Below are positions 27,636 to 31,046 of a stretch of 64,000 bases of DNA, one piece after another. Both the position numbers and the translations under genes were made by a program. Source of the DNA: Phormidesmis priestleyi BC1401 (GTDB taxonomy: Bacteria > Cyanobacteriota > Cyanobacteriia > Leptolyngbyales > Leptolyngbyaceae); contig NZ_LXYR01000008.1 of assembly GCF_001650195.1 (NCBI RefSeq), positions 62,001 through 126,000 of the forward strand, in the 5' to 3' direction. The stretch's first letter is position 1. Each line of letters starts with the position of its first letter. The notes beneath the pieces were generated by a model. The model saw nothing but the letters and a program-made list of their open reading frames with translations, did no database searches and had not been told where the DNA came from.

Positions 27636-27654
27636 CAATGGTTCGGACAATTTT
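27636..27654. repeat. Orphan terminal-repeat-like sequence
   Basis: CAATGGTTCGGACAATTTT matches the end of the miniature element at 29001-29124 in 17 of 19 positions. It begins 5 bp upstream of the rfbC start and 61 bp before the decayed transposase. It could be the left end of the same element family. Confidence 0.5.
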
Positions 27655-27714
27655 TTCCAGGAAAGCTATCCATCGAATAGGGTGCAAATACAAACAAGCA
27701 CTGGACAAATAACT

Positions 27715-28591
27715 ATGGAAGCCATTGTACAGAGCCTACTGACGAAAGTGGGCGTTTTCGCAAACTGCAAGTGACCTTTTTCGTGATGTTGTTTTCGACA
27801 ATGCTGATTGTGTGTGGCAACGTCAACTTCACGACCCTGAGCCGGTATCGTGAGGTGAATGAGAAACCGTATCGACGACGCTTTGAGAAAGCGTTTGAGT
27901 TTCTGCCCTTCAACGTCGAACTGGTGAACCTGGCGATCGCCCCCAGCAGTCGATTGCTGTGCGTCATGGACGCTTCATTTTTGCCCAAGAGTGGGAAAGC
28001 CACAGCAGGACTTGACCGCTCGTGGAATGGTTGTGCCAGTCGGGTGGACAGAGGCTTAGAGGTGTCGGTGATTAGAGTGGTGGCGGTTGAAACCGCTACA
28101 GCACATGCCCTATCCGCTCAACAAACCCTGACTCATTCCGAGTTACCCACTGAGATCACTCGAATGAATCAGTCTCTCTAAGCTGACCCTCATTATTTAA
28201 CTTGATAGCCTGCCCACTATGGGAAATGTGTTTCCGATGCTAGCTTGGGCAAAATAAATGTCGGTCAGCTTATCACCTCAAACAGGGGCGGCAGATGCGG
28301 ATGCCCCAGGTCTAGCACTTGGCAGATAGTGCCTATGGCAAGGAAAAGGAAGGCTTTATCACAGGTGTGATGCAGTTGAAGTCAAGTCCAGGACGTTGCC
28401 AAGTTCGACTTTTCTCCCCATGCGTCTCTGGTGACTCTTCCCTTTGTGCTCTCAGTGAGAAGTGTCAAACGCCGTGCCCTCACCATTCATCTGCTCGACC
28501 GCTTCAGACTTGGAGCCGACTGCGATTAAATCTCACCTCAATTATCAAACCTTTCTGTCCTACGGCTCGATCGCTGCATAAAATCGTCTAG
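27715..28591 (+). mobile_element. Decayed DDE transposase (IS4-like), several frameshifts and a deletion
   Basis: The start codon ATG 27715 opens MEAIVQSLLTKVG, which stops after 19 codons. A frame change near 27755 continues as RKLQVTFFVMLFSTMLIVCGNVNF, and this frame then holds VMDASFLPKSGK with the first catalytic aspartate. It ends at 28181. After about 140 bp a third frame carries LADSAYGKEKEGFITGVMQL with the second aspartate, and the rest is scrambled. The third catalytic acidic residue is not recoverable. Family assignment (IS4-like DDE) is moderate. The element separates rfbC from the broken methyltransferase gene. Confidence 0.75.
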
Positions 28592-28716
28592 AGCATTGTA
28601 GATTAAGTGTAAAAGTAGCAGACTATCTTCTGAGAAAAATGACGTTACAAGAAAGTGCCAGTTGTTGTAATGTTCTACATTAAGCTTCTAGGCTGACCTA
28701 AGCCCCGTACTTTTTG

Positions 28717-29518
28717 ATGAGGTTTAATTCTGTTCACAAATTCTATAGGAGCTATAAATTCATGTTCGTTGAAATTCACCCGGCACTTCTTCGGAAAATC
28801 GCAACTGATTCCGAACGCATCCCTTCGCTGTACTACTCTGACCATGCCCTGGTTTGCCAGTTCTTTTGGATGCGGCTGAAGTTGCTTTATGCGTTGATTT
28901 CAAAGAGCGTGAACTCTCAAGCCACTTGTCTCGACTTTGGGGGTGGAGGGGGTGTATTTTTTCCAACGTTAGCCAGATATTTTCAGCGAGTAGTTTTTAT
29001 CAATAGTCCGGACAGTTTTGAATCGCCAACGGCAGAATGCGGGTTTGAGCCTCCTCGGCGCGGTCAGATGCTGACGGTAGAATGCGGGGTTCAGCCTCTG
29101 CCTCGAAAATTGTCCGGACTATTGTTTTATTGACCTAGAAGATAAAGAGGCTAGATCTGTCGTTGAACAGTTTGACCTAAAAAATGTCCGCCTAATCAAA
29201 AGTGATATTGCCAAAGGGGATTTAGAGGATGCTTCATTTGATATCGTGATCGCAGCAGATGTCTTGGAACACTTTCAAGATTTATCGTTTCCGGTCAGCG
29301 TGATTAAGAGATGGTTGAAGAATGACGGACGTTTATATACCTCTCTTCCGACAGAAAACTGGATTTATACTTCCCTAAGGAAAGTGTTTGGCGTTCAAAA
29401 ACCTGAAGATCATTATCATACTGGTTACGAGGTTGAACGATATCTTCAGAGCAATGGCTTTAAGCCTATTAGAAAGAAATTTGTGCCGCTAGTGATAATT
29501 TGTTTCCTTTATTCTTAG
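28717..29518 (+). pseudogene. SAM-dependent methyltransferase interrupted by a miniature element
   Basis: The two halves are the N part (ending LARYFQRVVFI) and the C part (DLEDKEARSVVEQFDLKNVRLIKSDI...). They are separated by a 124-bp insertion plus a 6-bp duplication. Removing those 130 bp restores an uninterrupted class I methyltransferase with the motif CLDFGGGGGVFFPTLARYF, the acidic IDLED loop, and VLEHFQDL. As it stands the reading frame runs into the insert and stops after about 139 codons. The substrate is likely a sugar or lipid of the surface polysaccharide, by location only. ATG 28717 or ATG 28762 could be the start. Confidence 0.85.
29001..29124. mobile_element. 124-bp miniature inverted-repeat element with 6-bp target duplication
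   Basis: The ends are CAATAGTCCGGACAGTTTT and its inverse AAAATTGTCCGGACTATTG: 19-bp inverted repeats with one mismatch. The flanks 28995-29000 and 29125-29130 are both TTTTAT. Inside are two direct copies of a 25-bp unit (29029-29053 and 29074-29098; 22 of 25 match). No coding capacity. The surrounding gene is intact if the insert is removed, so this is a recent, well-preserved insertion. Confidence 0.9.
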
Positions 29519-29612
29519 TAACTGAATGGCGAAGGTTGTAGCTAGGCTAGTGAGCGTAATGCATACTAAGCGCAATCTATGTTACTCTAAATTGCGCCGA
29601 AATAATGTGTAG

Positions 29613-31046
29613 GTGAGAATAGTGAAAAAGAACAGGGACTTCTCTTCATTGAATGAACTCTTCAAAGGTTCAGAGGGAGCCTTTTTAACACTTTCCTTAA
29701 TATTTGGACTGATGTTTCTGATTGTTCTTCCGCCATTGCAAGCACCCGATGAACATGCACATTTCTTTCGAGCCTATCAGCTAACTGATGGCAAAATTAT
29801 CGCTGACGTGTTAACAGAAAAAAAAGATCGTGAGGAAAGAGCAACCTATCTAGGCGGAGGAGCATTGCCTTCGAGCGTGATCAGAACAGCAACCGTCTGG
29901 GCTGGTCGTATTCCGGGTCATTCAAGTGAGAAAGTAAAAAATGAACAATTCTTGGAAACTTGGGCAATGCCTTTAGAGGCAGAGAAAACGACTCGTGACG
30001 TGTTTAATTCGGCACCTTATAGTCCTATTCCATACATTCCACAAATGATTGGAATTGCTTTTGGAAAGCTTTTCAATCTTCCTCCCCTCTGGCTCACTTA
30101 CTTAGGCAGATTTGCGAATTTAGTCATTGCAACACTTATTACCTTTGTTTCGATCAAAGTTTTACCTATATATAAATGGGTTTTCTTTCTACTGGCGCTA
30201 ACCCCAATGGCACTCTCTCAGAGAGCTTCTTTATCCGCAGACGCTGTACTAAATGGCGTTTCCTTTCTACTGATTGCCACGATTATCAACTGCGCATTTA
30301 ATTCTAAAAAAGTTAAAGTATTAGCTAAAGATGTTGCACTGATTTCATTGGGAGGTATTCTTGTATCTTTGTCCAAGATAGTCTATTTGCCGTTTGTATT
30401 ACTATTCTTCCTAATTCCAAGGCATAAGTTTGATACTCGAAAAAATTATTGGTTGTCGTTTCTATTTTTGATTTTGTCTAATGTCTCGATTTGTTTCTTG
30501 TGGAATTTATCTGTAAAACATTTGGGAGTGCCCGTCTCTAGAATAACGGGTGCTTCGATTGAAGGACAAGTCGAGTATCTATACTCTCACCCACTAATGG
30601 TTTTCAGCATCGCCTGGAACACATTGCAAAATATCAGATTTATTTTGGATTCGTTCATTGGCATTCTTGGTTCTCTAGATACTCCCATTCCAACGATCAC
30701 GGTGCTCTCCTATCAAGTCATACTGGTGCTAGTTGCACTGGTCAGTAACCAGGCTGGCATTGTCATTTCACTATCAAGTAAGCTCACAATTCTCTTTGTT
30801 CTGGGAGCTACGGTTACCCTAATTCACTTACTGATGTATTTGGTATGGACAACAGTCGGCGGGACAGACGTTTTAGGCGTTCAAGGTCGCTATTTTATAC
30901 CAACTTCTCCGTTATTTTTCTTGCTGCTGTATAATCAGCGGTTTTCCTTCGATATTTCCGAGAAAAGCTTTCAGCGTTTGATCATTTATTACTCTGTTTT
31001 TGCTCTGCTAAGCAGTTTGATTGCGATGATAGCTCGCTACTATTAA
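29613..31046 (+). CDS. DUF2142 multi-spanning membrane protein
   Basis: A 477-aa protein with GTG start and roughly ten membrane helices. The first helix region (LTLSLIFGLMFLIVLPPLQAPDEHAHFFRAYQL) carries the PxQAPDEHxHxxRAY motif that marks DUF2142, a group related to GT-C-fold membrane enzymes and found in surface-polysaccharide loci. The conserved acidic DE pair on the first outer loop is where GT-C enzymes keep catalytic residues. Function as a lipid-linked sugar transferase is inferred. Codon use is AT-richer than in the flanks, and no HIP1 site occurs in it. Confidence 0.8.
   Translation: MRIVKKNRDFSSLNELFKGSEGAFLTLSLIFGLMFLIVLPPLQAPDEHAHFFRAYQLTDGKIIADVLTEKKDREERATYLGGGALPSSVIRTATVWAGRIPGHSSEKVKNEQFLETWAMPLEAEKTTRDVFNSAPYSPIPYIPQMIGIAFGKLFNLPPLWLTYLGRFANLVIATLITFVSIKVLPIYKWVFFLLALTPMALSQRASLSADAVLNGVSFLLIATIINCAFNSKKVKVLAKDVALISLGGILVSLSKIVYLPFVLLFFLIPRHKFDTRKNYWLSFLFLILSNVSICFLWNLSVKHLGVPVSRITGASIEGQVEYLYSHPLMVFSIAWNTLQNIRFILDSFIGILGSLDTPIPTITVLSYQVILVLVALVSNQAGIVISLSSKLTILFVLGATVTLIHLLMYLVWTTVGGTDVLGVQGRYFIPTSPLFFLLLYNQRFSFDISEKSFQRLIIYYSVFALLSSLIAMIARYY

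Follow-up and report, generated by a model that had tools for sequence, protein, structure and literature searches.

The window, a stretch of 64,000 nucleotides from Phormidesmis priestleyi BC1401, is located on contig C8 of a 5.55-Mb genome in 213 contigs. A methyltransferase gene in the window is split by an insert of 124 bp (Table 1), which is too small to hold a transposase gene. The 19-nt terminal repeats of the insert are 95% complementary, with a single mismatch, and TTTTAT is found on both sides, at the boundaries given in the original prediction. The interior contains two direct units, which as 25-nt repeats are 88% alike and 45 bp apart. The insert is almost certainly a MITE, a miniature non-autonomous DNA transposon.

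Table 1. Positions of the methyltransferase gene, the insert and its parts, and the upstream insertion sequence (window coordinates)
Feature	Position	Strand	Remarks
Decayed insertion sequence, related ends	27636..28598	+	Transposase remnant at 27771-28097, continuing further; right end set by eye
Methyltransferase gene, 5′ part	28762..29000	+	
Target duplication TTTTAT, left	28995..29000	.	
124-bp MITE	29001..29124	+	Orientation set by units reading AACG..GCC
Left terminal inverted repeat	29001..29019	+	19 nt
Unit 1, 24 nt	29028..29051	+	Start 27 bases from left end; as 25-nt repeat 29029-29053
Unit 2, 24 nt	29073..29096	+	Start 52 bases from right end; as 25-nt repeat 29074-29098
Right terminal inverted repeat	29106..29124	-	19 bases identical to the end of full-length copies on contigs C32 and C39
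Target duplication TTTTAT, right	29125..29130	.	
Methyltransferase gene, 3′ part with stop codon	29131..29518	+	Methyltransf_11 match

The interrupted gene and the copies of the MITE

The reading frame that holds position 28762 enters the MITE and terminates at 29133. Omission of 29001-29130 (130 bp) by script gives a single open frame, running from 28762 over 208 codons, with the joint at ..VVFI/DLED.., exactly as had been claimed. The downstream half matches Methyltransf_11 (PF08241) with an E value of 9.6e-10, above the cut-off of the model, and the upstream half alone has a weak match to the same domain. The gene is now truncated by the MITE. In a comparison of the joined protein with 194 genomes, only the genome of the window and one among the 193 others (G026) pass an E value of 1e-15. 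The G026 homologue has 31% identity (61/194), and its alignment is gapless across the insertion point.

No empty site in a sister strain was found, either in a DNA search of the 41 other genomes of the bacterial family or in a protein search of the 193 other genomes. The DNA of 28400-29800 has matches in the 41 genomes only through the MITE, at most 36 bases beside it, or the upstream IS relic, in a search that scored up to nine candidates per genome and covered MITE-rich genomes less fully. The decayed insertion sequence (IS), with the same type of ends, is separated from the MITE by about 400 bp on the upstream side. Together with the MITE, it indicates that the neighborhood of the methyltransferase gene has been struck at least twice.

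A search of the P. priestleyi genome with the 136 bases of 28995-29130 finds 24 dispersed, near-full-length matches of 123 or 124 bp, including the window copy, with identities of 69-100%. One of them (C3:138292) is identical to the window MITE, a copy on contig C1 differs by 2 bp, and three further copies differ by 9 bp. The identical copy, the perfect duplication, and the 208-codon frame free of any other stop support the earlier view of a recent insertion. A class of 174 bp with similar ends has 18 copies in the same genome. Exact 6-bp target duplications flank 17 of the 24 copies of 123/124 bp (they are absent in the other seven), 12 of the 18 copies of 174 bp, and, in other genomes, 16 of 29 copies. 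When flanks were paired between different copies as a control, 12 of 4970 pairs match over 6 bp. Every position of the 45 exact duplicated hexamers is mostly T and A. One 174-bp MITE (L098, contig C27) lies inside the relic of an IS whose ends are of the same kind; in the C6 copy of this IS the sequence is uninterrupted and serves as the empty site, and the duplication at L098 is 8 bp.

Beyond this genome, a plasmid from Oscillatoria nigro-viridis PCC 7112 carries a 124-bp element that is related to the whole MITE with 70% identity. A related element of 80 bp (L142, in genome G304) has one unit and lacks exactly 44 bp relative to the 124-bp form, as would result if one interval had been lost by recombination between the direct units.

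According to passages of a published account, bacterial MITEs are short and gene-free, have terminal inverted repeats, target duplications and many copies, are moved in trans, and can inactivate genes, for example in the microcystin cluster of Anabaena (PMC10969869). The window element agrees with this description in size, terminal repeats, duplications and copy number, and a gene-breaking MITE as such is ordinary. What distinguishes the window family from the elements in those passages is the pair of 24-bp units in the interior, whose distances from the ends are fixed and whose sequence is shared with an unrelated MITE family (see below). Nezha (Zhou et al. 2008) is likewise a cyanobacterial MITE. 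A literature text search with the unit strings tried returned no match, and the end strings tried matched three HLA papers only. In a search over titles and the openings of abstracts, no publication was recognized as describing this MITE family. As far as could be seen, the family of the MITE is new, although its kind is known.

The internal units inside and outside the MITE family

Among 25 elements from 16 genomes, chosen for diversity, the units are 76-82% alike between elements and the terminal repeats 86-89%, compared with 43-50% for the linker and spacers. Because these elements had been found by their likeness to the whole element, a census was made of 388 Cyanobacteriia genomes with the end sequences and the length only, blind to the units. 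The absence of any second copy in cyanobacteria had been named as a possible objection to the original prediction; at 120-150 bp, the census finds such elements in 29 of the 388 genomes, from 19 of 160 genera, and the reversed control finds none. Their length is 123 or 124 bp in 59 of the 63 places among the matches listed. At 106-120 bp, elements are found in 4 of the 388 genomes.

Exactly two units (with up to 5 mismatches) are present in 33 of the 35 elements taken from both census runs, and the two elements without units are both from genome G154. Of 700 shuffled interiors, 697 lack a unit, the remaining 3 have one, and none has two. In 31 of the 33 two-unit elements, the distance from the left end to the start of unit 1 is 27 bases (21 and 28 bases in the others), and in all 33 the start of unit 2 is 52 bases away from the right end. 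The spacing between the units is 45 in 21 elements and 44 in seven, with values of 34, 34, 35, 40 and 66 in the rest. The fixed distances to the ends, combined with this variable spacing, indicate that the distance to the ends is the conserved quantity. Helical phasing of the two units was considered and rejected, as spacings of 34, 35, 40, 44, 45 and 66 are incompatible with one phase.

The units of the census elements are 73-80% alike and the spacers and linker 43-51%; the terminal repeats are 91-93% alike, a figure partly imposed by the search pattern. Of the P. priestleyi copies, 23 of 24 have the distances 27 and 52, and one has 26 and 52. Elements of the 174-bp class contain a single unit, and its distance from the right end is 57 bases instead of 52 in all 19. 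In many elements, unit 2 is found in another form, near AACGAGAAATCAAGGGTTTCAGC. The original prediction had reported the units correctly and called them unusual; in this family they are the rule.

The unit is also found outside this family. Its 18-base core, with up to one mismatch, has matches in 60 of the 388 genomes, and the reversed control has one match among the matches listed. In 30 contexts outside the MITE family (38 minus 8 near relatives), the conservation is limited to about 24-26 nt and has sharp edges. A second MITE family, with the unrelated ends CAGCAATTCTCA..TGAGAATTGCTG, occurs in 15 of the 42 genomes of the bacterial family that were searched. In the 16 of its elements listed, of 153-155 bp, the unit core (up to 4 mismatches) is present in 16 of 16 and an exact 9-bp duplication in 7 of 16. 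Elements of this family (about 154 bp; L150 and L205-L234, in G001, G005, G008, G009, G017, G018 and other genomes) contain one copy of the unit each. Genome G017 has 99 matches of the unit core.

BLAST with a 30-base query locates the unit on Kovacikia and Nostoc plasmids, with 93% coverage and 86-93% identity, and the remaining plasmid and phage matches are short or weak. The exact 18-base core has no match in the viral contigs. Some standalone units (L137, L138, L171, L175 and others) are flanked by long complementary arms of differing sequence, and may represent another small mobile element.

Insertion sequences with the same ends

A 119-aa segment of the transposase has six matching places in the P. 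priestleyi genome, one of them inside an open frame of 412 codons on contig C72. This frame matches DDE_Tnp_1 (PF01609) with an E value of 9.7e-14, above the cut-off. Its best NCBIfam match is NF049999, of the IS701 family, at 123 bits with a cut-off of 170, and the match to NF033540 has 56 bits with a cut-off of 150; the distant likeness to IS701, seen in this best match and in the DDE_Tnp_1 domain, thus does not reach the curated cut-off of the IS701 models. The target duplication of IS701 is 4 bp, compared to 6 bp in the window family.

The full-length IS with MITE-type ends are about 1.3 kb in size and carry a DDE transposase frame. Relatives with these ends were found at six loci, including one of 1301 bp in Leptolyngbya sp. 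ES-bin-22 and one of 1311 bp in FACHB-36. Putative larger parents with matching terminal repeats, for which the original prediction had suggested a search, are thus present. Moreover, its proposal of a non-autonomous transposon family has held up, with many copies, matching terminal repeats, mostly 6-bp duplications, and larger transposase-encoding elements with the same ends.

The five full-length IS with readable flanks (C6, C72, L188, L189 and L190; own-genome loci L077 and L087) show no 6-bp duplication; misassembly at repeats, recombination, or a cut of another kind could be the cause. The unit is also absent from these five IS, the best 18-mer having 5-7 mismatches. A score of one mismatch at another locus (L192) is due to a 123-bp MITE that adjoins the IS. 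As a result, the tie between the MITE and the transposase rests on the terminal repeats. Birth of the MITE by internal deletion of an IS was rejected, as the IS seen are without the unit, and no likeness beyond the ends was noticed on inspection.

Contigs C32 and C39 break off within copies of the IS, and their outer 19 bases are those of the right terminal repeat of the MITE. Eight further contigs (C1, C25, C31, C41, C59, C85, C90 and C112) end in an identical stretch of 97 bases of another full-length IS, which indicates an IS that has recently multiplied and was collapsed in the assembly. The search that located these contig ends did not find the body of this IS.

The ATG frame of the IS (M-E/K-A/V-IVQSLL..) joins the main transposase frame only by a -1 shift, at the same place in all ten copies read (27636-28598 of the window, C6, C72, C32, C39, L188, L189, L190, L191 and L193). 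The shift point is near a T-rich stretch, and is found in the copies of other genomes too. From its sequence, the transposase is a candidate for programmed frameshifting.

Proposed composite ends and a possible role of the units

Most likely, judging from the sequences, the MITE was moved in trans by the DDE transposase of a ~1.3-kb IS that has the same terminal repeats. The MITE would have entered an A+T-rich site in the gene, which encodes a class I methyltransferase, and repair of the staggered cut would have duplicated 6 bp and left the gene truncated. Since the distance of each unit from its end is fixed while the sequence of the spacer drifts, we propose that the MITE has composite ends, formed by terminal repeat and unit, as for a site in a protein-DNA complex. 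The left end would comprise the terminal repeat, an 8-nt spacer, and a unit, and the right end a unit, a 9-nt spacer, and the terminal repeat. As both units have the same direction, the two ends are not mirror images of each other. The transposase or a host factor would bind the units while the ends are brought together; a host or otherwise unlinked binding factor is favored, as the IS seen do without the unit.

A role of the units as putative accessory end sites, bound by a protein, has roughly even odds. The whole explanation, with a MITE moved by a DDE transposase and the units as accessory end sites, is assigned a probability of about 0.5. Counted against this explanation are the five full-length IS with neither the 6-bp duplication nor the unit, the 174-bp class with its one unit at 57 bases, the two G154 elements without units, the one-unit element of 80 bp, the 8-bp duplication, and the seven of 24 copies that have no exact 6-bp duplication. 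A broader reading, that the 24-bp word is a shared and exchangeable end module of cyanobacterial miniature transposons, is tentative: MITE families with different ends and duplications would have recruited a common site for a single protein, host-encoded or unlinked, which would aid the joining of the transposon ends or control transposition, with autonomous partners that lack the site.

Small dispersed repeats (SDR) have a length of 21-27 nt and occur in diverse contexts. Such very small mobile repeats were reportedly found in cyanobacteria by Elhai et al. in 2008, some of them inside minitransposons. The unit resembles them in its length of 24 nt, its cyanobacterial hosts, and its varied contexts, including miniature transposons, and it may already have been named as a published cyanobacterial SDR; the likeness is one of description. 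SDR are also mentioned in passages of PMC3116915, and an SDR5 module inserted within HIP1 in those of PMC4390886; these passages give no sequence of the repeats. The units could be a hitchhiking dispersed repeat of this kind, with no role in the movement of the MITE. In favor of a hitchhiker are the sharply bounded core of about 24-26 nt in 30 contexts away from the family, its occurrence in 60 of 388 genomes, and its presence within a second MITE family with unrelated ends. However, late arrivals would scatter, whereas the distances to the ends are fixed in 31 of 33 and 33 of 33 census elements despite the drift of the spacers, and in this the unit also differs from SDR. No copy resembling a pre-insertion state was seen in the family, with the two unit-less G154 elements set aside, and a hitchhiking repeat is considered rather unlikely. 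REPINs and REP sequences, in the passages of PMC3116915, are likewise short dispersed repeats that are sometimes paired, whereas the units here are direct repeats inside a transposon with terminal inverted repeats and target duplications.

It is less likely still that the true autonomous partner is another IS that carries the units near its ends, with the IS found here merely having common terminal repeats. The full-length IS seen lack both the unit and the 6-bp duplication, and the IS behind the 97-base contig ends, with its body not found, would be open to this role. On the other hand, the 97 bases that are visible contain no unit, and the ends on C32 and C39 are the right terminal repeat of the MITE over 19 bases. 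A neutral leftover of an old duplication, kept by common descent alone, could explain the short flanking letters that the units have in common in several subfamilies. It is very improbable, as the linker and spacers have fallen to 43-51% identity while the units are at 73-80%, and the spacer lengths have stayed constant. A conserved RNA or single-stranded DNA structure has even less in its favor. The window MITE does fold so that the units of the minus strand lie in two hairpin loops, and the arms of 38 standalone units have a mean complementarity of 19.1, compared to 15.2 when re-paired (0 of 2000 permutations), an effect carried by a minority of them. In comparison, 25 aligned elements show no consensus pairing in the interior on either strand. 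The mean fold z-scores are -0.48 and -0.22 for the interiors and -0.95 and -1.06 for the standalone contexts, with -0.77 for controls 400 nt away. A comparison of the window stretch with Rfam gave no match; ten other loci gave only three weak ones, all to eukaryotic families and below threshold. A structured interior throughout the family was therefore rejected, given the lack of consensus pairing and folding no better than that of nearby sequence, although the window MITE and some standalone units do fold.

A short word whose distances from the ends are fixed, which the likely parents seen here lack and which recurs in a MITE with unrelated ends, suggests an accessory factor that is used by more than one transposon system. 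If true, such a factor would help account for how miniature elements out-multiply their parents, and it would provide a class of tiny cyanobacterial repeats with a function open to testing.
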